This document shows positions 5,925-42,846 of a stretch of DNA of 64,000 nt, piece by piece. Source of the stretch: Rhabdobacter roseus (lineage in GTDB: Bacteria; Bacteroidota; Bacteroidia; Cytophagales; Spirosomataceae). Both the position numbers and the translations under genes were made by a program. The first letter of the stretch is position 1. Each line of letters begins with the position of its first letter. The stretch is taken from the NCBI RefSeq assembly GCF_014202275.1, contig NZ_JACHGF010000001.1, forward strand, positions 496,001 through 560,000. The letters run 5' to 3'. The notes under the pieces are model-generated. The model did no database searches, had not been told where the DNA came from, and saw nothing but the letters and a program-made list of their open reading frames with translations.

Positions 5925-7457
5925 TTAACAATCACTCTCACCAAACGACGCTCGTAGCCGCTCGTAGTCGATCTTGGAATGGTGGCGCGGGTCGCGGGGA
6001 AGTTTGGGTACAAAAACAATTTCCCGAATGGGTACTTCCAGCGCCTCGATCTGCCGCCGAACGGCTTCTTTCTGAGCCGGGTCGCGGAGCTCTAGGAAAG
6101 CCGTCAAGGTACCTTGGAGTAGCAGCAAAGTACCTAGCTCCACGCCGGGGAGCGTTTGGAAGTAGTGCTCGTAAACAAAGGGCGAGAGCAGTTCTCCTTC
6201 CCACGGAATGAGGCTGGCGCAGCGCCCCGTCAGAAAAAGCAGGCCGTGCGCGTCGAGGTAGCCGCTGTCGCCGGTGCGGTGCCAGCACTGGTCGTTTACG
6301 AAGATTTTGTGGCGCTGGCGGGCGGGGGCGTTGTGCAGGTAGTCGCGCAGGACGTGCGCCCCGCTCACGATGATCTCGCCGATCTGGCCGCGGGGTACTT
6401 CCAGGGCGTCCAGGTCCGGTAGGGAGTGCACCACCAAGGCCTCGTCCGTGATCCCGATGATTTTGACCTGTGTCTCCGGCGCGGGCTTTCCTACTTTCAG
6501 GCCCTGGGTAGGTACTTTCTCTTGCCTGAGCTCCGCTACGTCGATGGCGCTGATGGGCTCGGCTTCGGTGGAGCCGTACACGACCTGGGTCGTAGCCTCG
6601 GGAAAAGCCCGGTGGTACAGCGCGGCCTCCGTTGGAAACACGGGCGCGCCGCCGGTGAAGATTTTTTGTAGCTGGGGGAGCCCAAGGCGCTGGCTGATGA
6701 GGTACCTGGCAATTTCTTTCACCACAAAAGGCGAAGCCACCAGGCTCCGTACCTGCTGCGCTTCCAGCTGCCGCACGATACGGCCCGGCTTGATGGTGTG
6801 CGGCTTCCGCGGGTTGAAATCCGCAATGACCGACGTAACACCGCTGCCCAGGTTGATCAGCAGCACGATGGGCAGCACGGGCATGTCGGTGGTTTGGGTC
6901 TGGGGCTGGATGAGCCTCGTGAGCGATTGAAACTGCGCCTGCAACAGCCCGTGGGTACGTACGGCGGCCTTGGGCACGCCCGTACTACCCGTAGTGAAGG
7001 TAATGAGCGCGGGGTCGTCGGGCGTGGTTTCGGGGAAGGAGAAGGTACCTTGAGCCGAAAAATGCAGGCCCAGCTTCAGCGGAATCTTCCGCGTTTCGGC
7101 GGAGAGCAGCGCCAGCAGCCGCACTTTCCAGCTCCCCACGAAGGCCCGGCACTGCGCCACCCGGCAGGCCTCCTCCAGGCGCTTTTTACTCACCCATTCG
7201 TCCAGAAAAACCGCCGTGGCCCCCATCCGGAAAAGCGCCAGCACCACCCGGTACAGGTCGATGCTCATGGGAACAAACACCAGCACGCGGTCGCCCTTGC
7301 GGATGCCTTTATGAAGAAAGTACCGCGCCGTGTCGGTGACCTGCTGCTCCAGCTCCGCAAAAGACACGGCGCGGTTGCGGTGGATGATGGCCGTCTGCTG
7401 GGGTACCTGGCGGGCCGCCGCGTAAAACAGATCCACGATGTTGAAGGCGTTCTCCAT
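5925..7457 (-). CDS. AMP-binding acyl-CoA ligase / acyl-AMP ligase
   Basis: 510 residues from the ATG at 7457; an in-frame extension to 7622 overlaps the upstream gene and is rejected. It is an ANL-superfamily adenylating enzyme: the phosphate-binding motif TFTTGSTGVPKAAVRTHG lies near residues 155-172, the A5-like VYGSTEAEPIS in the middle, and the RTGDSGYLDAHGLLFLTGR region near 390. The family activates a carboxylic acid with ATP to an acyl-adenylate and usually passes it to CoA. It is the last gene of the seven-gene lipid operon, 10 bp after the GNAT-like gene. In that setting a fatty or isoprenoid acid is a plausible substrate, which is inference. A substrate-specific subfamily cannot be assigned. 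Confidence 0.85.
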   Translation of the reverse strand: MENAFNIVDLFYAAARQVPQQTAIIHRNRAVSFAELEQQVTDTARYFLHKGIRKGDRVLVFVPMSIDLYRVVLALFRMGATAVFLDEWVSKKRLEEACRVAQCRAFVGSWKVRLLALLSAETRKIPLKLGLHFSAQGTFSFPETTPDDPALITFTTGSTGVPKAAVRTHGLLQAQFQSLTRLIQPQTQTTDMPVLPIVLLINLGSGVTSVIADFNPRKPHTIKPGRIVRQLEAQQVRSLVASPFVVKEIARYLISQRLGLPQLQKIFTGGAPVFPTEAALYHRAFPEATTQVVYGSTEAEPISAIDVAELRQEKVPTQGLKVGKPAPETQVKIIGITDEALVVHSLPDLDALEVPRGQIGEIIVSGAHVLRDYLHNAPARQRHKIFVNDQCWHRTGDSGYLDAHGLLFLTGRCASLIPWEGELLSPFVYEHYFQTLPGVELGTLLLLQGTLTAFLELRDPAQKEAVRRQIEALEVPIREIVFVPKLPRDPRHHSKIDYERLRASFGESDC

Positions 7458-7467
7458 AAGGGTACTT

Positions 7468-8478
7468 TTAGTGCAGGTACTTTCCGTACAAAATGTATTC
7501 CTTGTACGACTGCCCCGAAAAATGACTCGATAGCGTGGTGGAGGTACCTTGCTCGAAGATAAACGGGTGAATGATGCTCTGGTAGCCCAGGCCGGTGGCG
7601 ATTTGGTAAATGCGGTTGCCAATGACGCGCCCCAGGCCCCGCCACCGCTCGGCCGGATGGCGCGCGAGGGTTTTCACGATCAACGATTTTTCGGTTTGGT
7701 TCCAGACGTCGTCCAGGCAAAAAAAGTAGCCGATCAGGTTTTGCGCCGCATCTTCGGCCAGTAAGGTACATTGCGGATGCACGAACGGCCGGGCCGGGAG
7801 GTACTTTTGAACAAACGCATCCTGGTCAATGGGCGTATAAAGGAAGTTTTTCTGGAAAGCCAGGGCCGTAAAGGCGTGGATTCGCACCAGCTCCTGCTCG
7901 TAGCGAAGCAGGTCGATGGGCCGGATCACGACGCCCTGCGCGCTCAGCGCCCGGTCGCGGGCCAGTACCTCCGGGTGGTCGAACCGCAGGGTCGTATCTT
8001 TGTGGCTCACGTAGCGCCCGATGGCCCCCAAGCCCGCCTGCGCGAAGTGCGCGTGGTAGTAGAGGTGGTGGTAGGGCTCCAGAAAAAACGGCGGATAGCG
8101 GTGGTGAAGGCTGAAACGGTAGGTTTCCCAGGTACTTCCGTTCATGGGACCGAGCAGAAACGCCGCCCCCAGGGCGCGCGCTTCGGCGGCGATATGCTCC
8201 AGGAGCTGCCTGCCGTGAGGTACCTCCGGCGTGGCTTCGTACTGGCCCACGCAGCAGGTTTTTTGGTTTTGATAAAGCAACTGCGGGTTGTGGTACAAAG
8301 CCGCGCGCGCCCGTACCTGCCCCCGCTCCACGAGCAGGTAGCAGCCCGCCAAAAACGCCTCCGGCAGGGTTTCGGGTAGGTGGAAGTAGGGGCTGTCGGG
8401 CGGGTAGATTTCTTTGGGGAAATCGCGAAAAAGCGGAAAATCCGGCTGACCGGGCCGTGTTTCTAGTATTTCAATCAT
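7468..8478 (-). CDS. GNAT-like acyltransferase family protein
   Basis: 336 residues from the ATG at 8478, whose ATGA overlaps the stop of the lipid-kinase gene; a longer open frame upstream is a shadow. The body resembles proteins annotated as GNAT-like N-acyltransferases: FLLGPMNGSTWETYRF near residue 100, then EQELVRIHAFTALAF, and a C-terminal acceptor-like region RWRGLGRVIGNRIYQIATG near residues 285-303 that resembles the GNAT pantetheine-binding loop. No signal peptide or membrane helix is visible. The gene sits between a CTP-dependent lipid kinase and an acyl-AMP ligase, which suggests acyl transfer to a lipid or amine headgroup. That role is inference from context; the fold assignment itself is moderate. 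Confidence 0.7.
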   Translation of the reverse strand: MIEILETRPGQPDFPLFRDFPKEIYPPDSPYFHLPETLPEAFLAGCYLLVERGQVRARAALYHNPQLLYQNQKTCCVGQYEATPEVPHGRQLLEHIAAEARALGAAFLLGPMNGSTWETYRFSLHHRYPPFFLEPYHHLYYHAHFAQAGLGAIGRYVSHKDTTLRFDHPEVLARDRALSAQGVVIRPIDLLRYEQELVRIHAFTALAFQKNFLYTPIDQDAFVQKYLPARPFVHPQCTLLAEDAAQNLIGYFFCLDDVWNQTEKSLIVKTLARHPAERWRGLGRVIGNRIYQIATGLGYQSIIHPFIFEQGTSTTLSSHFSGQSYKEYILYGKYLH

Positions 8479-9137
8479 GAATAAAAAAGGAGGGTTAGTA
8501 GCACGCTGAGCGGTACGGTGAGGTTGTCGGTACCTTTTAGGCCCACGGCCTCGGCGCCCGTAGCCAGCGCGGCCAGCACCAGCACAAAGGAAGTGCCTAG
8601 CTCCGATGGGAAAGGCATCAGGTACAGCAGAAGGCCGGTTAATAAAAAGGTCGCCAAGAAAAAAGCCCCGGAGCCCGTCAGCGTTTTGGGACTCCTCGCC
8701 GGGCCGTACTGCCCCCACGGCCAGCGCTTGCCCACCAGCGCCGCCAGCGGATCGCAGACCGCCAGAATGAGCATGGGTAGGTAAAATACCAGCAGGCCCC
8801 GCTCCGCGTGGTGGTAGGCCAGGTAGCAGCCGTATACGGCCACCGGGTACAGGGTACTTCCCAGCGAAGCGCGCCCGACGGCGTTGATCGAAGGCAGAAA
8901 ACGGTACTTCAGGCTGGCCAGCAGCAGCAGCAAAAAACCAACGCAAAGTACCAGCACCGACCAGTGGCTATCCAGCCAGAGCGGAAACAGCAGCGTGAGC
9001 ACGCCCGTACCCAGGTGCACGATTTTTCGGGTGAGCTCGGCGGGTACCCGAAGCCAGTGATAAAGTACCTCGGCCAGGCCGAAGAGGGTCAGAAAACAAA
9101 GCGTCAGGAGCAGTATAGCGCCAAGATCCGGGATCAT
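8475..9137 (-). CDS. CTP-dependent lipid kinase (dolichol/phytol kinase, DGK1-like) membrane protein
   Basis: 220 residues, about six to seven membrane helices. It carries the hallmarks of the SEC59/VTE5/DGK1 polyprenol kinase family: RKIVHLGTG at 37-45, a GSTLYPVA stretch at 93-100, CDPLAALVGKRWP at 128-140, SPKTLTGSGA at 149-158 and DNLTVPL at 204-210. These enzymes phosphorylate a lipid alcohol (dolichol, phytol, diacylglycerol) with CTP in the membrane; phosphatidate cytidylyltransferases are distant relatives and a common misannotation. The start overlaps the stop of the DUF3419 gene by 4 bp and its own stop overlaps the GNAT-like start, so translation is probably coupled. With HMG-CoA reductase and UbiA in the same operon, an isoprenoid alcohol or unusual diacylglycerol is a reasonable substrate (inference). 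Confidence 0.82.
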   Translation of the reverse strand: MIPDLGAILLLTLCFLTLFGLAEVLYHWLRVPAELTRKIVHLGTGVLTLLFPLWLDSHWSVLVLCVGFLLLLLASLKYRFLPSINAVGRASLGSTLYPVAVYGCYLAYHHAERGLLVFYLPMLILAVCDPLAALVGKRWPWGQYGPARSPKTLTGSGAFFLATFLLTGLLLYLMPFPSELGTSFVLVLAALATGAEAVGLKGTDNLTVPLSVLLTLLFYS

Positions 9138-10225
9138 TTGCGTTGATCGACGATGAATTGTTGATAAAAAAAACCGTTGTCGCGCGCGGTGAGGGTACTG
9201 GAAAGCGCGGCCAGGTACCTGGCGCTTTCGGGCCGGGCGGGGGCGATGTGCCGGGGCACGAGCAGGTTCCAGTAGGCCAGCTTACCGCCCGGTAAGGTAC
9301 CTTCCAGAAGCTGCTGCGCGGTATCCATAAACTGCCTTTGATCCATGTACTCAAAAATATTCGACAGATTGAGGTACCCAAACGGACCGAACTCGGCGAT
9401 GGCCTCCTGGGCAAATCCTTGTTTCAGCACCAGCCGGTCCAAGTTGGCTTTAATAGCATCGTAGTTTTCGGGCCGGAGGTAGTGGGGCACTAAAGTACCA
9501 AAACTACCCGTAAGCGCATAGCGCAGCATGGGGTTGGTCTGGGCCGCCGCCGACTGCAAGTGCCGGGCGGCTTTAGCGTAGATGGTCTTTGCCACGGGTA
9601 CTTTTACTTCTCTCAAAAACTCCGGGTCGCGGCCGTACTTGCCCATGACGTACCGGCTGAAGAAGAGCCGAAACAGCAGCTTCCAGCGCCAGGTATCCCA
9701 GCGGCTGGCGTAGTAGGTAGCCTGCTCGGCCTCACTTTTGGGGCGCAGGAGTTCGTCGATAGTGCGGCCCGAATGAATCCAGGGCAGTAGTTTGTGGGCA
9801 AAGAGCTGAAAGTACCTTTCAAACTTTCCCTGGTGAATCACGCCGCCCCGGAGGAGCGGCCGGTTGTTTTCCCAGTACTGCCGGGCGGGGGTACTTAGCG
9901 CGGTTTTGATGGCCTGAAAGTACTCCTCGCGCCGGGTACTTTCCGTAAAACCCAAAAATTCCAGCGTTTGCGCGCGGCTGAGCGTTTGAATACTGGCTTT
10001 TTTGAGCTCGATGAGGTAGAGCTGCAAGGCGCTGATGTCCACGGCCACTACCCGCGCGGGCTGGGTACTTAGGAGCGAAAAGCTGTTGTCGCCCGCCGAG
10101 CCTACCGACAAAATGGTACTGCCCGGCGCGGGGGCGAGCCCGGCCAGCAGCAGGTCGGCGTCTTCCCAGCAGTTGGCGTAGCGGATCTGGTCAAAAAGTA
10201 CCCGTTGGGTCAAATCGTGGCTCAT
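9134..10225 (-). CDS. DUF3419 family protein, BtaA-like S-adenosylmethionine 3-amino-3-carboxypropyl transferase
   Basis: 363 residues. The N-terminal DQIRYANCWEDADLL (12-26) and the SAM-site glycine region ILSVGSAGDNSFSLL (38-52) with VVAVDISALQLYL following are characteristic of DUF3419/BtaA. In betaine-lipid synthesis BtaA moves the aminocarboxypropyl group of SAM onto diacylglycerol, and BtaB then trimethylates it. No BtaB methyltransferase is present in this operon, so the product, if lipid, may stay unmethylated or be modified by neighbours. The start overlaps the dikinase stop by 4 bp and the stop overlaps the lipid-kinase start by 4 bp. Family assignment is strong; the exact acceptor is unknown. 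Confidence 0.85.
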   Translation of the reverse strand: MSHDLTQRVLFDQIRYANCWEDADLLLAGLAPAPGSTILSVGSAGDNSFSLLSTQPARVVAVDISALQLYLIELKKASIQTLSRAQTLEFLGFTESTRREEYFQAIKTALSTPARQYWENNRPLLRGGVIHQGKFERYFQLFAHKLLPWIHSGRTIDELLRPKSEAEQATYYASRWDTWRWKLLFRLFFSRYVMGKYGRDPEFLREVKVPVAKTIYAKAARHLQSAAAQTNPMLRYALTGSFGTLVPHYLRPENYDAIKANLDRLVLKQGFAQEAIAEFGPFGYLNLSNIFEYMDQRQFMDTAQQLLEGTLPGGKLAYWNLLVPRHIAPARPESARYLAALSSTLTARDNGFFYQQFIVDQRK

Positions 10226-12876
10226 GACTCTGGCTGAATGATACGAATGTGCCCTGTGCTGCCGTCCATTTCTAGTTCGTCTCCGGTTTTTATGGTTTTC
10301 AAAAGGCCCGTCACGCCCACGATGCAGGGCTTGCCCATCTCGCGCGACACGATGGCCGAGTGGCTAAGCAGGCTCCCGCGCTCCACAATGATGCCCGAGG
10401 CGCTCGGGAAGAGCATCACCCAGCCCGGATCGGTGCTGGTAGTGACGAGTATGTCGCCGTTTAGCGAAGGTACCTCGCCGGGGTGGAGCACCACCCGCGC
10501 CCGCGCCCGTACTTTTCCGGGCGAGCACCCGATTCCCTTCAACGTACCTTCTCCCGCTTGAGGTTCATCTTGACGATTTGCCTCAAAATCGGTGGATTGG
10601 TACACCGGGCCGTAGGTAGCAAAGCGCTCCGGGGGCGGGTCTTGTTGGTGGTACTTTTCAAATTCGGCCTGGCGCAGGGCCACCAGCGCGCGGGCGTTTT
10701 GGGTCACGGAAGTACCTTCGATCAGCGCAAAAATCTCGTCCTGGGTCAGGTAGAAAATAGCGCGGTCGTCGTCCAGAAGGCCCTCAGCCTCAAACCGCCG
10801 GCCCATATACGTGAACAACTCCCGCACGATGCCGAAGGCGCGGGTGCGCTCGTAGCGAAGATTCTCGCGGGCGCTGACCAGCTCCCGGGCTTTCCGGAGG
10901 GTACTTTTGAGCTGCCAGCGGACGTAGGGACGGCCGCGCAGCGCCTGCTCCAGCTGCTGCTCGGCCTGCTGCCGGATCTGGCTTTCGGCCCGCGCCGAGA
11001 AGCGCTCGGTAGTGAGGCCCGTTTCTACATAGGTTTTCAGGATCTGGATAAATTGGGTAGGATCGTGCGCGTACGACACCGTTTCGAGCTTAAGTTCTCC
11101 CACACAACGTTCGCCGAAGTCGGCCAGGTACTGGTCAATGGACTTTTTGAGTGAAAGGTAGTTGGGCGCCGTACTTTCCTGAAGCCGCTGCCAAAGGGTA
11201 CTTGGTGCTCCGGTGATAAATAAATCCTTGAGCTCGTCGTCGGCCAGGATTTGCGACGCCAGAGCCCCCGTGCGGTGGATGGGCTGCACCGAAATAATGT
11301 CGCTGCTGCCGCAGAGCAGGTCGTTGTGGATGTTGGGGAATTGGGGGAGGTACTTTTCGCACTGCTTCTGCAACCGCCCAAACCAGATCATGGCAAAGAA
11401 GTCGTTGAGCAGCGGGGCTTTCCACTCGTTGAGCAGGGTACCTTCAAAGTGCCGGTAGAGCTGCATGAGCTCGTGGGCGCTTTTCGCGGGGTAGTCAAGG
11501 CCCTTGTAGTGCGTGATGGTTTTTTCCAAAAGCGCCATGAACTCGCGGCGCTTGCGCGGCAGCGAAAGGTACCTGGCGTACATCCGTACGGCCATTTTCA
11601 AAATACGCCACCCGGCTTGTCCTTTCGACAGGCGGTAGTTGTCCGGAATGTCGAAGCGCTCCTTGACGCCCATCATGTTTTCCATGAAGCGGGCGTTGAG
11701 GCTGTAGCCCGGCAGCATGGCCAGCATGTGGTACCAGGTTTTGAGGTTGTAGTACACGCGGCCGTTGATGAGCCCCAGCGTATTGGCAAACACCGCCTGG
11801 TTTTCTTTCACCACGCGCTCGCTCACGCCCAGGTACTGGCTAAACAGCGAGTAGGCTACCTCGTAGGATTGACGAATAAACGAAAACGTGAGCGGCGTCG
11901 TGACGCCCGGATACGACTCAATGATGTTGCTGTTGTCCCAAAGGGTATACTCCCCTGACCCGGATTCGCGGGATGACCCCTCGCTTTCCGGCGTGGATAC
12001 GTCCGGAGCGGCGGGCAGGCCCGTGATGGGCCGGGTTTGTAATAAAAAGAGGGTATTGTTTTTAATCGCAAACTCAATGTCCTGCGGGCTGCCCCATTCC
12101 CGCGCAAGTACCTCCAGCGCGTCGGCGATCTGCCGGATTTGCTCGGGCGTCAGCGTGGGGGCATCGTGCCGGTGGGGCTCCAGGGGTACTTGGCAAGTAC
12201 CCCCCGACGAATCAGGGTTCAACACCACCTGATGCGTTTTGTGGGCCAATTGACTGACAATTTCTCCGTTTCGTACCGTAAAATGATCGGCGTTCAATTC
12301 GCCCGACACCAGCCCTTCGCCCAGCCCAAACACGGCGCTGATGAGTTTTTCGTCCCGACGGCCGTTGGCGATATTGGCCCCAAAAGCCACACCCGCTACC
12401 TCGGCGTCGATCATTTCCTGCAAAATCACCGCCATACCAAACGCGCCCGCCGCCTGGTGATGCTTTCTGTAGGCCGCTACCCGTTCCGAGAAAGCCGACG
12501 CCCAAACGTCCCGGATGCGGTCGGCCAGGGACGAGGGCGGTACGTAGAGGTAGCTTTCAAATTGCCCCGCGAAGGAAAAGGTAGTGCCGTCTTCGTCGGG
12601 CGCAGAGGAGCGCACGGCCAGGTACCTGGCTTCGGGAAAGTGGGCGAGGATTTCGGTCACCCATTCGGCGGGAAGGGTACTTTGGGCGATAAACGCGCGG
12701 ATCTGCCCGGCATCGCCCGCTCGGATCTCCTGCGGAACGAGCGCCTCAAGTACCTCCACCGGAAGCACGGCAAACGGCGGTACGCGCAGGCCCATTTCCT
12801 GCAAACGAAACAGATTTTTGGCCTTGCCGCCCAGGGTACCTGTCGGGTTGGGGTCGGTGTGGAGGACGTTCGACAT
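10222..12876 (-). CDS. PEP/pyruvate-binding dikinase, rifampicin-phosphotransferase-like architecture
   Basis: 884 residues. The N-terminal ATP-grasp (PPDK N) domain shows GGKAKNLFRLQEMGL near residue 16 and RSSAPDEDGTTFSFAGQFES near 90-110. A long central region follows, and the swivelling phosphohistidine domain is at the very C terminus with GSLLSHSAIVSREMGKP, catalytic His839. True PEP synthase and PPDK carry a further C-terminal PEP/pyruvate barrel after the histidine domain; none is present. The order ATP-grasp, substrate domain, His domain is that of rifampicin phosphotransferase, which splits ATP to AMP and phosphate while phosphorylating a small molecule. The substrate here is probably an operon intermediate (inference). 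The start shares one base with the UbiA stop. Confidence 0.85.
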   Translation of the reverse strand: MSNVLHTDPNPTGTLGGKAKNLFRLQEMGLRVPPFAVLPVEVLEALVPQEIRAGDAGQIRAFIAQSTLPAEWVTEILAHFPEARYLAVRSSAPDEDGTTFSFAGQFESYLYVPPSSLADRIRDVWASAFSERVAAYRKHHQAAGAFGMAVILQEMIDAEVAGVAFGANIANGRRDEKLISAVFGLGEGLVSGELNADHFTVRNGEIVSQLAHKTHQVVLNPDSSGGTCQVPLEPHRHDAPTLTPEQIRQIADALEVLAREWGSPQDIEFAIKNNTLFLLQTRPITGLPAAPDVSTPESEGSSRESGSGEYTLWDNSNIIESYPGVTTPLTFSFIRQSYEVAYSLFSQYLGVSERVVKENQAVFANTLGLINGRVYYNLKTWYHMLAMLPGYSLNARFMENMMGVKERFDIPDNYRLSKGQAGWRILKMAVRMYARYLSLPRKRREFMALLEKTITHYKGLDYPAKSAHELMQLYRHFEGTLLNEWKAPLLNDFFAMIWFGRLQKQCEKYLPQFPNIHNDLLCGSSDIISVQPIHRTGALASQILADDELKDLFITGAPSTLWQRLQESTAPNYLSLKKSIDQYLADFGERCVGELKLETVSYAHDPTQFIQILKTYVETGLTTERFSARAESQIRQQAEQQLEQALRGRPYVRWQLKSTLRKARELVSARENLRYERTRAFGIVRELFTYMGRRFEAEGLLDDDRAIFYLTQDEIFALIEGTSVTQNARALVALRQAEFEKYHQQDPPPERFATYGPVYQSTDFEANRQDEPQAGEGTLKGIGCSPGKVRARARVVLHPGEVPSLNGDILVTTSTDPGWVMLFPSASGIIVERGSLLSHSAIVSREMGKPCIVGVTGLLKTIKTGDELEMDGSTGHIRIIQPES

Positions 12877-13850
12877 CAGTCAAAGAGAAGTTTGGTGAGC
12901 ATGGGGCCGCCGCCCAGGGTGAGGTACATGGCGATGGTCCAAAGCGCCGAGGCGGCCTCGATGAGGCGGGCGCGCTTGGGGCTGCGCTGCTGCAAAAAGA
13001 GTACTGCTGGCCAAGAGCAAAGCGAGAAAAGTACCCCCAGCACCACGAAGCCCGTTTTGCCGTAGCCCGCAAAGTAGGAAGCCAGGATGCTCATGACCAG
13101 CGTGAGCAGCAGCACGCCCAGCCAAAGTACCACCGCGCGCCGGCCGCCCAGCATGGCGGTATAGGTAAGTACCCCCTCAGCCTCCTGCTCCGGCGCGCGG
13201 ATCTTCCGGCCAATCTCCAGCACGATGCCGTTGAGGTACGATACCCCAAAAAAGAACAGCAACCCCACGGGAGCGGCCGCGCCCTCCAGGTACCAGTCGA
13301 GCCCGCTGGCGTAGACGTCCACCAGCGGAATGATGAACATGTGCGAGGTCACGTACCAGAACTGGTGCTTTTTGAGCCACGCGGCCACAAAAAATTCCTT
13401 GGTCATCAGCCCCAGGTACGTGACCACAACCAGGTACAACACCAGCATTTTAGGAAAGAAAAGCGCATTCAGCGCCACCTGAAGCACCACCGCGCCCACG
13501 GCCAGGGTACCTAGCTCCCGAAACGAAACCAGGCCGCGGGGGACGGGAAGCTCGGGGCGGAAGCGGGCGTCATCGGCGGCGTCCTTGAATTCGTCGGCAA
13601 TGCGCACCAGCAGGAAGAGCGACACCGTGGTGATGGCTCCCACCGCAAAGGTAGTGCCGTCGATGAAGCCTTCCACGCCGCGACAAATGCGGGAGTAGGA
13701 AACCGCCGAGAAGCTAAAAGCCAGCACCAGCAGGCCGTGGCCCAGGAGCGGGAAACGCTCCTTTTGGTATATATAAAGTCGTTTTAAAAAAGGAGCCTGA
13801 TTTTCTTCGATCCGGCTAAATTCGTTGGATAGATGGGCGGATCTGCTCAT
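12876..13850 (-). CDS. UbiA-family prenyltransferase
   Basis: 324 residues from the ATG at 13850 (ATGA overlap with the HMG-CoA reductase stop); an upstream extension is rejected. Multi-pass membrane protein, about eight to nine helices. The first aspartate-rich motif is RIADEFKDAADDARFRPE (83-100), followed by LPVPRGLVS; the second conserved region is EIGRKIRAPEQEAEGVLTY near residues 228-246. UbiA enzymes bind a prenyl diphosphate through Mg2+ held by the two acidic motifs and transfer the prenyl chain to an aromatic or lipid acceptor. The motif spacing is that of the RxxDEFKD/RKIRxPxxE subgroup rather than MenA or COX10. No acceptor can be read from the sequence, and the operon suggests a lipid. 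Confidence 0.85.
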   Translation of the reverse strand: MSRSAHLSNEFSRIEENQAPFLKRLYIYQKERFPLLGHGLLVLAFSFSAVSYSRICRGVEGFIDGTTFAVGAITTVSLFLLVRIADEFKDAADDARFRPELPVPRGLVSFRELGTLAVGAVVLQVALNALFFPKMLVLYLVVVTYLGLMTKEFFVAAWLKKHQFWYVTSHMFIIPLVDVYASGLDWYLEGAAAPVGLLFFFGVSYLNGIVLEIGRKIRAPEQEAEGVLTYTAMLGGRRAVVLWLGVLLLTLVMSILASYFAGYGKTGFVVLGVLFSLCSWPAVLFLQQRSPKRARLIEAASALWTIAMYLTLGGGPMLTKLLFD

Positions 13851-15121
13851 TTTTTTCGGCCGTATTTTTGGTGGGCGGACGTAAAATGACCCGCCGACAG
13901 CGCGGCCGCGATGGAGAGCTCTCCCGCCAGCACCGTGGCCCCGCAGATTTCGGCCAGCTTTTTGGCTTTGCCCGCGCCGTAGCAGTCGAGCAGCTCCAGG
14001 CACTCGCGTTGGGTGGGCAGCGAAGTACCCCCGCCCACGGTACCCACGATGAGGTTGGGGAGCGTCACGCTGGCGTACAGGTTTCCGTCGTGCGTGACCT
14101 CCATGCGCGTGATGCCCACCGCCGCCTCCGACACGCAGGTTACGTCTTGTCCGGTGGCGATGAAGAGCGCCGCGAGCCCGTTGGCGTAGTGCCCCTGCGC
14201 GCCGATGGCCCCACTCTGGATAGTTCCTAGCGTGGAGGAACGCCAGTACTGGGCTATGGCTTCGGGGGTTGTTTTCAAAAGATCGCTTACCAGTACCTGC
14301 GGTAGTTCTATTTCGGCCGTTACCTTTTTGCCCCGTACGTTGCTGAACGACAACGCTGTGGCTTTCTTGTCGCCGGAGTAATTTCCCTCAATAAACCAGA
14401 ACTCGGGCTTGACGGGAGCTTCGGCCAGGATGTACTGACAAATGGCGTCGGTACAGAGCGTCACCATGTTTTGGCCGGCGGCGTCGCCGGTATGGTACTC
14501 AAAGGTAAGGATAAGGTGGTTGCCCTCGATGTTGGTCTTGACGCTTTCCAGCCGGGCGTAGCGACTTTGCTGGCGGGTGATTTCTTCAAAAGTACCTACC
14601 TGCCCCAGCGCCCAGGCCAGAAATTCCATCAGGTACCTCAGGTCGTTGAACTTAAATAACGGCGACCGCTGTACGCCTTCCGCCAGGCAGACCGACGTAA
14701 CCCCACCGGCCAGCGAGCAGGCCTTGGCGCCCCGCTGGTAGGAGGCTACGAGTGCGCCTTCGGTGGTGGCGAGCGGTACGTAGAAATCGCCCTGGGCGTC
14801 GTTGCCAATCACGCGCAGCGGACCAATGATCCCCGTAGGTACCTGGGCCATTCCGATGTAGTTTTCGATGTTCCCTTCCAGGGTACTTGGCTCCGAAAAA
14901 CGCGCCGTGCCCGCCAGAAAAGCGGGGTACTTCTGAAGGGTACTTTGCAGGAAATCGAGTCTTCGCCGGGTACCTTCCACTGAAGGTACCTCTTCCGTCG
15001 GGATGTTTTTTTGGCCGTTTGGCCGGGAGTTTTTCTCGGCGGGATTCTCCCCTCCGGCCGGGGTACTTGGCGGAGGAAGGGTGGTCCAATCAGGCTTGAA
15101 TGTCTCGTCGGAATCGGGCAT
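13847..15121 (-). CDS. hmgA: Hydroxymethylglutaryl-CoA reductase, class I (NADPH)
   Basis: 424 residues from the ATG at 15121. It reduces HMG-CoA to mevalonate, the committed step of the mevalonate route to isoprenoids. Class I signatures are all visible: ENYIGMAQVPTGIIGPL (86-102), TTEGALVASYQRG with Glu121, GNYSGDKKA with Lys252, GQDVTC with Asp326, VGTVGGGTSLPTQ (360-371), LAGELSIAAALSAGH, and SAHQKYGR with the catalytic His417. No membrane anchor is seen; the first about 50 residues are proline-rich and probably disordered. It is the first gene of the operon, with a 4-bp overlap into UbiA. An HMG-CoA reductase heading a lipid-tailoring operon rather than a mevalonate cluster is unusual. 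An in-frame extension to 15247 lacks family support. Confidence 0.95.
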   Translation of the reverse strand: MPDSDETFKPDWTTLPPPSTPAGGENPAEKNSRPNGQKNIPTEEVPSVEGTRRRLDFLQSTLQKYPAFLAGTARFSEPSTLEGNIENYIGMAQVPTGIIGPLRVIGNDAQGDFYVPLATTEGALVASYQRGAKACSLAGGVTSVCLAEGVQRSPLFKFNDLRYLMEFLAWALGQVGTFEEITRQQSRYARLESVKTNIEGNHLILTFEYHTGDAAGQNMVTLCTDAICQYILAEAPVKPEFWFIEGNYSGDKKATALSFSNVRGKKVTAEIELPQVLVSDLLKTTPEAIAQYWRSSTLGTIQSGAIGAQGHYANGLAALFIATGQDVTCVSEAAVGITRMEVTHDGNLYASVTLPNLIVGTVGGGTSLPTQRECLELLDCYGAGKAKKLAEICGATVLAGELSIAAALSAGHFTSAHQKYGRKK

Positions 15122-41094: not shown

Positions 41095-42846
41095 ATGAAA
41101 AAAATCGTATTAACCGTATCAATGCTTTTGGCAGGTACCTACCTCTTTGCCCAAAGTAACACCGCTACCGTTGACCAGAAAGGCAATGGCAACACTGCCC
41201 CTATCACTCAAACGGGACTTACCAACACGGCTACTGTACTTCAAAAAGGCCCTGGTTCGGCCAACGCTAACAACAACGACGGTGCCGTTACCCAAACTGG
41301 TACCTCAAACATCGCTACTACTACCCAACAAGGTAGTAATGATGACGCCAGTACCACCCAGCAGGGTAATTCCAATACTGGAATCATTAACCAGGCCGTA
41401 AATGGTGTGAATGATGCTACCATCCAGCAAATTGGTGGTAATTCTAATACTGCTACCATCAATCAAGGTGGAAACCGGACGACTGTATTTGGAGTAGTTA
41501 TTGCCGAAACCCGAAACGATGCCGACGTAACGCAAACGGGAAGCAGTAATATTTCAACGGTAGGTCAAGGAGGTGCTGCTTCGGGCGATAACGACGCGGA
41601 CGTGCTGCAATCAGGTAATGACAACACCTCTACCATCAGCCAAACGGCCGGTTTAGCAGGTAACAACAACGCCAACACCGTGCAGTCAGGAAATGGCAAC
41701 ACCGAAACGACTACCCAATCCGGTGCCGTAACCAACAACGCACAGACCGATCAGTCGGGTGATGGAAATACGTCTACTACTACTCAAAGTGGTTCAGTTC
41801 TGGCCAACAATGCGATAACGGATCAGGAAGGTGATGGAAATAATGCCACTACCATCCAATCAGGCTCAGCCCTAAACGGGTCGTTTACTTACCAGTCGGG
41901 TGATGGTAACACAGCTTCAACGACCCAATCGGGAGCCGGAGGAGAGAACACAGCTTTAACGGATCAGGAAGGTGATGGAAATTCCTCTACGATTGGTCAG
42001 TCCGCCAGTACGCTAGGTACCAATGGTGCTGAGATCTTTCAGGAAGGAAATGGCAATACTTCTACCGCTACGCAGACGGCCTCAGGTGCGGGCAGTAACT
42101 ACCTTTTGGTTGACCAGGAAGGGAGCAGTAATAATTCAACGTCTACGCAAGGTGCTAGCTCGGGTGGTGATAACGAGGCCGAGATCCTCCAAGGTGGCAA
42201 TGGTAATGGTTCTACTTTGAACCAAACTGCCTCTACCCTGGGAGATAACTACGCCGAAATTAGCCAGGAAGGTGATGGTAATACTTCTACTGCTACTCAA
42301 GCGGCTAGCACGTCAGGTGACAACGATTTGTATGTTAGTCAAATTGGAAATGGCAATACTTCTACTGCTTCCCAAACGGCTAGCTTAGGTGGTGATAACT
42401 ACGCCAGCATAACTCAGGGCGGTAACAGTAACACCTCAGTACTTACGCAAACTGCGGGTTTATTTGGTGACAATGAAGCGTTTATTTCGCAAGCGGGTAA
42501 TGGTAATACCAGCCGTCTTAGCCAAACCGGTGCCAACTACGCGAACATTTCCCAAGCTAGTAACGGGAATTTCTTTGTAGGAGCCACCAATAGTGATCCC
42601 GCAATCCAGAATGGTTTCGGAAACGTAATCAATCTATCGCAATTGGGCGGAGATGGCAACGTGACTCGCCTGAATCAAACCGGTAATAATAACACGGTTA
42701 AAGGTGTAATTGATGGTTTGGCGATTCAAAATGGTACTAACAACCTGGCAGACATTACCCAAACGGGTAACGGCCATACGTTCAATTTGAGCCAGATTGG
42801 TAATAACAATTCCGCGGTAGTTTCGCAGTCTCCCATGATGCCTTAA
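41095..42846 (+). CDS. Large secreted curlin-repeat protein (CsgA/CsgB-like)
   Basis: 583 residues with a clear signal peptide (MKKIVLTVSMLLAGTYLFAQ). Nearly the whole mature part consists of curlin-type repeats of about 20-25 residues with the N-G-N-x-S/T ... Q-x-G pattern (for example GDGNTSTTTQSG, GNGNTSTATQTASG); about 20 repeats can be followed. Curlin repeats stack into a beta-helical amyloid on the cell surface. CsgA is about 150 residues, so this is roughly four times longer. No csgG, csgE or csgF homologue is nearby. The 364-bp spacer 40731-41094 is A/T-rich upstream sequence without a clear TAnnTTTG box; I saw no gene in it. Confidence 0.88.
   Translation: MKKIVLTVSMLLAGTYLFAQSNTATVDQKGNGNTAPITQTGLTNTATVLQKGPGSANANNNDGAVTQTGTSNIATTTQQGSNDDASTTQQGNSNTGIINQAVNGVNDATIQQIGGNSNTATINQGGNRTTVFGVVIAETRNDADVTQTGSSNISTVGQGGAASGDNDADVLQSGNDNTSTISQTAGLAGNNNANTVQSGNGNTETTTQSGAVTNNAQTDQSGDGNTSTTTQSGSVLANNAITDQEGDGNNATTIQSGSALNGSFTYQSGDGNTASTTQSGAGGENTALTDQEGDGNSSTIGQSASTLGTNGAEIFQEGNGNTSTATQTASGAGSNYLLVDQEGSSNNSTSTQGASSGGDNEAEILQGGNGNGSTLNQTASTLGDNYAEISQEGDGNTSTATQAASTSGDNDLYVSQIGNGNTSTASQTASLGGDNYASITQGGNSNTSVLTQTAGLFGDNEAFISQAGNGNTSRLSQTGANYANISQASNGNFFVGATNSDPAIQNGFGNVINLSQLGGDGNVTRLNQTGNNNTVKGVIDGLAIQNGTNNLADITQTGNGHTFNLSQIGNNNSAVVSQSPMMP

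Follow-up and report, generated by a model that had tools for sequence, protein, structure and literature searches.

Seven genes lie head to tail on the minus strand of the window (the whole 64,000-nucleotide stretch of Rhabdobacter roseus DNA that was analysed), and the original prediction was that they act in one pathway, with HMG-CoA reductase in its established role of supplying mevalonate. Do these genes belong together, is the HMG-CoA reductase (HMGR)-like protein encoded by the first of them a mevalonate enzyme, and what might the product be?

Organization of the operon

The operon occupies positions 5925-15121 (Table 1). Each of the seven ORFs begins with ATG; longer alternatives with GTG or TTG starts are possible for the HMGR, UbiA, GNAT, and LIG genes. 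The ORF coordinates agreed with the predicted junctions, namely overlaps of 4, 1, 4, 4, and 4 bp and one 10-bp gap. The predicted families were recovered with Pfam for HMG-CoA_red, UbiA, PPDK_N, DUF3419, and AMP-binding, and the GNAT fold was supported by a structure model; the assignment that fell short was that of KIN, whose Pfam score lay below the cut-off. No match at E ≤ 0.001 was obtained when the seven proteins were searched for anti-phage defence with PADLOC.

Table 1. Genes of the operon, listed from the first to the last
Product	Positions	Strand	Length	Main match
HMGR-like CoA-thioester reductase (first gene)	13847-15121	-	424 aa	PF00368 HMG-CoA_red, 385 bits
UbiA-superfamily membrane transferase	12876-13850	-	324 aa	PF01040, 39 bits (cut-off 34)
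PPS, RPH-like/PEP-synthase-like dikinase	10222-12876	-	884 aa	PPDK_N and PEP-utilisers
DUF3419 (BtaA-like) SAM-dependent enzyme	9134-10225	-	363 aa	PF11899, 204.8 bits
KIN, small membrane protein (CTP_transf_1 / dolichol-phytol kinase type)	8475-9137	-	220 aa	PF01148, 20.4 bits (cut-off 24)
Tandem-GNAT N-acyltransferase-like protein	7468-8478	-	336 aa	Structure model
LIG, acyl-adenylating ligase, PRK09274/OleC-like (last gene)	5925-7457	-	510 aa	PF00501 AMP-binding, 158 bits

Gene order and variants in other genomes

A total of 82 related loci were collected, and the 46 with enough flank were used for counting; the 36 short-flank loci were excluded. The complete seven-gene set was present in 38 of the 46 loci, in identical order in 37, according to a tblastn recount that was used because ORF calling alone missed displaced genes and gave lower counts (34 and 33). 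The distribution across genomes was patchy, several Dyadobacter genomes being among those that carry the operon, and the gene order of the window was also found on an alphaproteobacterial plasmid (Roseinatronobacter sp. S2). An arrangement shared by 37 of the 46 flanked loci is beyond chance. The plasmid copy likewise speaks against a chance neighbourhood, and the view that the genes form one coupled, conserved pathway held. Among the short-flank loci, four contained three or fewer operon genes: L061, L101, and L106, which have little flank, and L053, in which the 10 kb downstream of the DUF3419 gene carried no KIN, GNAT, or LIG gene.

Ten loci contained an inserted pair of small membrane-enzyme genes, at a different position in one of them. 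The families were checked in three of the ten loci, for both genes of the pair only in L062, and where checked they were those of a CDP-alcohol phosphotransferase and a cytidylyltransferase-type protein. Apart from this pair and a gene of about 200 residues before LIG, no extra gene recurred inside the operon. The CDP-alcohol phosphotransferase and cytidylyltransferase-type insertions suggest a phospholipid-like product. Together with the membrane enzymes, the GNAT protein, and the ligase, they make the predicted lipid-type product plausible, and the operon product is probably a fat-like molecule.

HMGR was absent from seven of the 46 flanked loci and was the sole missing gene in five of these. 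Two genomes with such loci were searched: G156 had only a lone-type HMGR-like gene, and G165, whose completeness is uncertain, had none. The pathway may thus be able to dispense with the HMGR step, or another enzyme may have assumed it. A related gene set exists in which an APH-type kinase is present and HMGR and KIN are both absent. Variant-2 clusters retain a LIG relative, and their genomes have no HMGR.

Substrate pocket of the HMGR-like protein

Ser684, Lys735, and Asn755 are named as HMG-pocket residues in PMC7503714. The window protein retains the catalytic Glu, Lys, Asp, and His, and carries Glu, Ser, and Gln at positions 684, 735, and 755, respectively. In an alignment of 86 HMGR-like rows (one gene being included twice, and about 20 rows being non-operon relatives), the catalytic Glu559, Lys691, Asp767, and His866 were present in every row, as were Asp690 and Lys692 of the HMG pocket, and Asp653 of the NADPH site was present in 84. 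On the other hand, Ser684 and Lys735 were found in no row and Asn755 in three, and position 684 was Glu in 85 rows. All three residues are retained in the HMGRs of human, M. okinawensis, and a Streptomyces MVA cluster. Thus, the operon protein shares with class I HMGR the fold family, the catalytic residues, and Asp653, whereas it differs in the replacement of Ser684, Lys735, and mostly Asn755 and in lacking an accompanying mevalonate gene set. The same altered pocket was observed in lone HMGR-like proteins outside the operon, so the change extends beyond this pathway. In the HMGR tree, the three mevalonate-type HMGRs split from all others with support of 100/99; only this split was used, since the tree contains long branches (human, PL_L190, L168, and PL_L189). 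The operon rows did not form one group in it, and Vibrio rows were interspersed.

Judged from these residues, the operon HMGR looks like an enzyme repurposed for another reaction, a pocket change in itself being no proof of a change of substrate. A pocket with Glu684 and without Lys735 would fit a substrate that lacks the HMG carboxylate and perhaps bears an amine or a hydroxyl group.

Mevalonate in the operon genomes

IspH of the MEP pathway was present, with no convincing MvaD, in 17 of 21 operon genomes. The other four had a convincing MvaD match (one above the cut-off and three just below it), and weak matches (E = 5e-5 to 1.4e-4) were seen in three more operon genomes, including that of R. 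roseus itself. A second HMGR gene was present in all four genomes with MvaD, about 1 kb from MvaD in G155 and G160; the operon HMGR is separate from this mevalonate-pathway copy. The altered pocket, the 17 MEP genomes, and the second HMGR all argue against the predicted role of the operon HMGR, the supply of mevalonate for isoprenoids. The original prediction, in which these isoprenoids then undergo prenyl and aminocarboxypropyl transfer to give a prenylated amino-acid lipid, has the family names on its side, but the same three observations make it very unlikely.

Mevalonate made by HMGR could instead be a building block itself, rather than a source of isopentenyl diphosphate, with LIG activating it and GNAT transferring it; the anhydromevalonyl siderophores of fungi are a partial parallel. 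HMGR and LIG share one operon, LIG is PRK09274/OleC-like, its group being related to the beta-lactone synthetases, whose substrates are 3-hydroxy acids, the four catalytic residues and Asp690 and Lys692 are retained, and 17 of the 21 genomes seem unable to convert mevalonate to isoprenoids. However, Ser684, Lys735, and mostly Asn755 are missing from the reductase, and the variant-2 clusters keep their LIG relative in genomes without any HMGR. No convincing HMG-CoA synthase was found across the 21 operon genomes, by an insensitive test. Overall, we consider mevalonate as a building block rather unlikely. The C half of HMG-CoA synthase was detected in none of 25 genomes and the N half in four of 26, one convincingly (G191) and three weakly. 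Even the four genomes that carry both MvaD and an additional HMGR gave none; this test is therefore insensitive, and the absence of the synthase was dropped as an argument.

UbiA, PPS, and the DUF3419 protein

The first Asp-rich motif of the UbiA protein (DExKDxxxD) was invariant in 27 rows. The second, which is DxxxD in UbiA prenyltransferases, was replaced by an equally invariant ExxRKx6E, which leaves prenyl transfer as a putative activity of the protein. This replacement also bears on an archaeal-type isoprenoid glycerol ether lipid, which would be made by GGGPS, a UbiA protein acting as DGGGPS, and CarS. One of the 27 UbiA rows matched a GGGP geranylgeranyltransferase model, one locus contained a CarS-like gene, and PcrB/GGGPS was present in 17 of the 21 operon genomes, including that of R. 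roseus. The altered second motif speaks against such a lipid, and because the PcrB match was absent from four operon genomes, all Sphingobacterium, this explanation was ranked low and appears highly improbable.

Like the ebo cluster (EboC, Ubi-297), the operon is a conserved bacterial operon with a UbiA-like gene, and in the available text of PMC9235831 no product is assigned to that cluster; the operon lacks the other kinds of ebo genes named there. The window UbiA scored 17.9 bits against the EboC model (cut-off 250). The ebo cluster was rejected as a match because its gene set differs, as were the systems described in the available texts of the FCB archaeal-lipid paper (PMC7852524) and the lipocone paper (PMC12419801).

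PPS consists of an ATP domain, a middle domain, and a C-terminal His domain with a conserved catalytic-His motif (SLLSHSA), and it matched PDB 5fbs, which we take to be rifampin phosphotransferase (RPH), with 226 bits. RPH has this same layout. No Pfam match to the PEP-binding C-terminal TIM barrel of PEP synthase was found in PPS, in which the His domain is C-terminal. PPS also resembles the prodigiosin ligase PigC (355.7 bits, cut-off 1300) and RedH (349.1 bits) in domain layout, but it scores below the NCBIfam cut-offs for RPH, PigC, and RedH alike. The operon might yield a meroterpenoid or another small secondary metabolite, in which case LIG would handle an aromatic acid that UbiA prenylates, and PPS would act as a PigC-like condensing ligase; besides these sub-cut-off scores, the patchy distribution and the plasmid copy are consistent with such a product. 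Nevertheless, the recurrent CDP-alcohol phosphotransferase and cytidylyltransferase-type pair is a better fit for lipids, and the only further genes that recur inside the operon are this pair and the one before LIG. We therefore regard a meroterpenoid as unlikely, if worth keeping in mind.

The DUF3419 protein belongs to the same Pfam family as BtaA, the SAM:diacylglycerol aminocarboxypropyltransferase. The presence of this domain would fit a betaine lipid; however, a BtaB-like methyltransferase is absent among the seven genes, and the BtaA/BtaB route needs none of the six genes with which the DUF3419 gene shares its operon. A betaine lipid is thus scarcely credible. Foldseek gave weak SAM-methyltransferase-type matches for the DUF3419 model (E = 1.4e-4, TM 0.31). 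Sequence searches against solved structures gave only near-chance matches for the DUF3419 and UbiA proteins and none for GNAT.

KIN, GNAT, and LIG

In the KIN alignment, 11 of 40 members matched CTP_transf_1 at E ≤ 0.05, and a Pfam search with the KIN relative on the Roseinatronobacter plasmid gave no match. The window GNAT gene had no Pfam family match of its own. Its AlphaFold2 model (pLDDT 95) was a tandem GNAT, with Z scores of 23.2 to 7q3a and 19.8 to mycothiol synthase 2c27, and 21 of 48 members of the alignment matched PF00583 at E ≤ 0.05. The best NCBIfam model for LIG was PRK09274 (346.6 bits, cut-off 478); OleC beta-lactone synthetase models scored 193.2 bits (cut-off 900) and 171.9 bits (cut-off 850).

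Proposed pathway

From these families we infer the following order of steps and product. LIG would adenylate a carboxylic acid and convert it to a CoA thioester. The HMGR-like enzyme would produce a primary alcohol by NADPH-dependent reduction of this CoA thioester or of a different one. Phosphorylation of the alcohol would fall to KIN, with CTP as donor, and to the RPH-like dikinase, which would convert ATP to AMP + Pi; it might proceed stepwise to a diphosphate, by analogy with phytol kinase and phytyl-phosphate kinase, which act ahead of a UbiA-type transferase. UbiA would couple the phosphorylated alcohol, or else a prenyl chain, to an acceptor. The DUF3419 enzyme would use SAM to attach a 3-amino-3-carboxypropyl group, and the tandem GNAT would acylate an amine. 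A phospho-headgroup might be added in some relatives by the cytidylyltransferase and the CDP-alcohol phosphotransferase. In principle, this scheme resembles the phytol salvage route (VTE5, VTE6, and the UbiA-type VTE2), where phosphorylation by a CTP-type kinase is followed by another phosphorylation and by the action of a UbiA transferase; the operon, on the other hand, is bacterial and adds a reductase, a ligase, and GNAT.

That this conserved, horizontally mobile operon makes an acylated, amino-acid-bearing amphiphile by such a mechanism is our favoured reading, held tentatively at somewhat short of an even chance. It is possible, though somewhat more doubtful, that an HMGR relative was recruited for a different CoA thioester in a new mobile pathway for a lipid class in which acid reduction, double phosphorylation, and UbiA-type coupling come together with an N-acylated aminocarboxypropyl group. 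No described pathway with the seven-gene set was found among the titles listed by full-text searches of the open-access literature, and within this coverage the expectation of an undescribed gene set was borne out.

The operon crosses Bacteroidota genera and reaches an alphaproteobacterial plasmid, which makes it a direct target for lipidomics. Should the HMGR relative prove to have changed its substrate, MEP bacteria would be wrongly annotated for mevalonate synthesis wherever the annotation depends on such a gene, and an enzyme familiar from textbooks would have an unrecognised sister activity.

Layout of the operon and its protein families

The predicted layout was borne out: the seven minus-strand genes have ATG starts and are joined by overlaps of 4, 1, 4, 4, and 4 bp and a 10-bp gap. 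Pfam and NCBIfam searches assigned the products to HMG-CoA_red (HMGR), UbiA, PPDK_N/PEP-utilisers (PPS), DUF3419, and AMP-binding (LIG), with a sub-threshold match to CTP_transf_1 (KIN). The seventh protein (GNAT) had no family; its structure model (pLDDT 95) indicates a tandem GNAT, for which the top structural matches were MAB_4324, glucosamine N-acetyltransferase, and mycothiol synthase, and N-myristoyltransferases ranked lower. UbiA keeps the first Asp-rich motif, and the second is replaced by an invariant ExxRKx6E. The window UbiA matched two uncharacterised prenyltransferase models far below the cut-off, and the other UbiA sequences weakly matched EboC, chlorophyll-synthase, and further models. 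In the PPS-like protein, the catalytic-His motif is conserved and the His domain is C-terminal; this domain is last in rifampin phosphotransferase, whose layout is alike, whereas it is not last in PEP synthase. The modeled structure of DUF3419 bears a weak resemblance to SAM enzymes. LIG falls in the PRK09274/OleC-like group with scores under the cut-offs. Elsewhere in the window, a protein with many N/Q/G/T-rich repeats reads, by eye, like a curlin-type amyloid subunit.

Coordinates of the operon and of other features in the compared loci
Locus	Coordinates	Feature
Window	5925-15121 (-)	Seven-gene operon
Window	41095-42846	N/Q/G/T-rich repeat protein
L034	6766-17401	Variant 2 cluster
L036	1-10442	Variant 2 cluster
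L037		Variant 2 cluster
L032		Variant 2 cluster
L030	8352-13357	Third DUF3419 neighbourhood
L031	8405-13377	Third DUF3419 neighbourhood
L170	8006-9556	Lone HMGR-like gene
L181	8836-10092	Operon-type HMGR of genome G191
L189	5947-7191	HMGR-like gene, Sinorhizobium plasmid

Conservation and transfer of the operon

DUF3419 matches were found in 21 of the 149 relatives' genomes searched, and the close type (at least 44% identity) in seven including the window's own; on the short contig of one of these, G147, the DUF3419 gene had no operon partner. A one-genome-per-species scan yielded 259 pattern matches, 219 of them encoding a relative, and the best 80 of the 219 plus two more loci were examined (82 loci; four judged duplicates omitted). 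Gene order was counted at the 46 loci where the sequence flanking the DUF3419 gene exceeded 6 kb on the upstream side and 4.5 kb on the downstream side. The seven genes, originally predicted to form one pathway, were all present at 38 of these loci, and in canonical order and strand at 37, when ORF profiles were supplemented with tblastn; ORF profiles on their own gave 34 and 33. The non-canonical full set (L028) lies in three separate blocks. Individually, HMGR was present at 39 loci, UbiA, PPS, and KIN at 44 each, and GNAT and LIG at 45 each. HMGR alone was missing at five loci, L093 lacked KIN, L068 lacked three genes, and L121 (titled Chlorobi) had the DUF3419 gene only. With starts as set by the ORF caller, the commonest spacing at each junction was a 4-bp start-stop overlap. 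Pairwise distances were correlated between genes at Spearman 0.33 to 0.80 (43 loci), with the minimum for HMGR-LIG. These values suggest that the operon has mostly, though imperfectly, been co-inherited as a unit.

Dyadobacter, Sphingobacterium, Fluviicola, Chitinophaga, and Saprospiraceae are among the carriers by record title, and a Chitinispirillaceae assembly (L118) has five of the operon genes. Plasmid unnamed3 of the alphaproteobacterium Roseinatronobacter sp. S2 carries HMGR-UbiA-PPS-DUF3419-KIN-GNAT-LIG in the same order, with identities over the aligned parts of 51, 35, 36, 35, 31, 30, and 33%, respectively; its HMGR spans the record start and was read from the end portion alone, and its longer KIN (439 aa) had no Pfam match. 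The operon is a unit that is conserved and has been transferred.

Among 395 evenly drawn Bacteroidota genomes, operon-type HMGR was found in nine, including the window's own; the other eight were 53-61% identical, and two of these eight matches span a stop codon. Operon genes surrounded HMGR in four of the five genomes inspected, in a different order in L179 and L183. In the fifth, G191, there were none within the 19 kb inspected; its second HMGR is divergent (26% identical to the operon type).

Additional genes and a related cluster

A pair of small membrane-enzyme genes lies within the operon at ten loci, at the HMGR/UbiA junction in nine and the PPS/DUF3419 junction in L112. Family tests gave CDP-alcohol phosphotransferase and CTP_transf_1 in L062, CTP_transf_1 in L071, and a CarS-like protein in L100; the remaining members were assigned by eye from likeness to these. 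A gene of ~200 residues between GNAT and LIG occurs at eleven loci, and the one tested had a weak likeness to SRPBCC proteins, scoring 24.8 bits against a cut-off of 27.4.

Four genomes from the window's family have a cluster of LIG, DUF3419, GNAT, PPS, and UbiA relatives, ~25-33% identical where aligned, together with an APH-type kinase, which was assigned by a family test in L034 and L036 and by eye in L032 and L037. We call this cluster variant 2. An MMPL transporter adjoins it in L034 (tested). HMGR and KIN were not found in the four clusters, and two genome searches, one of them including G066 (71% complete), gave no HMGR match in variant 2 genomes. Therefore, the core common to both clusters is UbiA, PPS, DUF3419, GNAT, and LIG; the variable parts are the kinase and HMGR. 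Another gene set surrounds DUF3419 in a third kind of neighbourhood, seen in two genomes that belong to one genus group and looking alike by eye in both.

Active site of the HMGR-like protein

Operon HMGRs and some 20 lone relatives were aligned (86 rows, one gene counted twice). The catalytic Glu559, Lys691, Asp767, and His866 were present in all 86 rows. The HMG-pocket residues named in the review PMC7503714 include Ser684, Asp690, Lys692, Lys735, and Asn755. Asp690 and Lys692 were retained in every row, Lys735 and Ser684 in none (Glu in 85 and Ala in one at position 684), and Asn755 in three, two being one gene. Unlike the operon HMGR, those of human, M. okinawensis, and a Streptomyces mevalonate gene set retain Ser684, Lys735, and Asn755. 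Lys735 is also missing from HMGR-like proteins of Vibrio, Alteromonas, and another Streptomyces, and Asn755 is kept in two Vibrio rows. No mevalonate genes were seen in the annotated Vibrio and Alteromonas regions around these genes; the other Vibrio and Streptomyces records have no annotation there. In the HMGR tree, the three mevalonate-type sequences split from the rest with support of 100/99, with long-branch warnings. Judged from its residues, the operon HMGR is evidently not a normal one.

A second HMGR-like group (L145-L165; e.g., L170), 41-47% identical, occurs alone in many Bacteroidota, mostly as open frames of ~520-600 aa with Lys735 likewise lost. The nine lone-type neighbourhoods L170-L178 contained no operon and one weak ligase match (L176). 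In L189, acyl-CoA carboxylase-type genes flank the HMGR-like gene, whose active-site region diverges at positions conserved in the others.

Role of the operon reductase

The window's genome has IspH, with IspE and IspG identified by reading translations; MvaD gave only a weak match (22.4 bits), where the gene reads as homoserine kinase. IspH was present in 18 of the 21 operon genomes and a convincing MvaD in four (one over the cut-off, three just under). Each of these four has a second HMGR, located ~1 kb from MvaD in G155 and G160; G162 has a second HMGR of the lone type without MvaD. The proposed mevalonate supply is poorly supported, given the lost HMG-pocket residues and the 17 of 21 operon genomes that have IspH without a convincing MvaD. 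Together with the second HMGR of the MvaD genomes, the latter count suggests a dedicated operon reductase, which probably does not feed isoprenoid synthesis. In the pathway that we propose, LIG would activate an acid, the HMGR-like enzyme would carry out a reduction, KIN and the RPH-like enzyme (PPS) would phosphorylate, UbiA would perform the coupling, and DUF3419 and GNAT may decorate the product.
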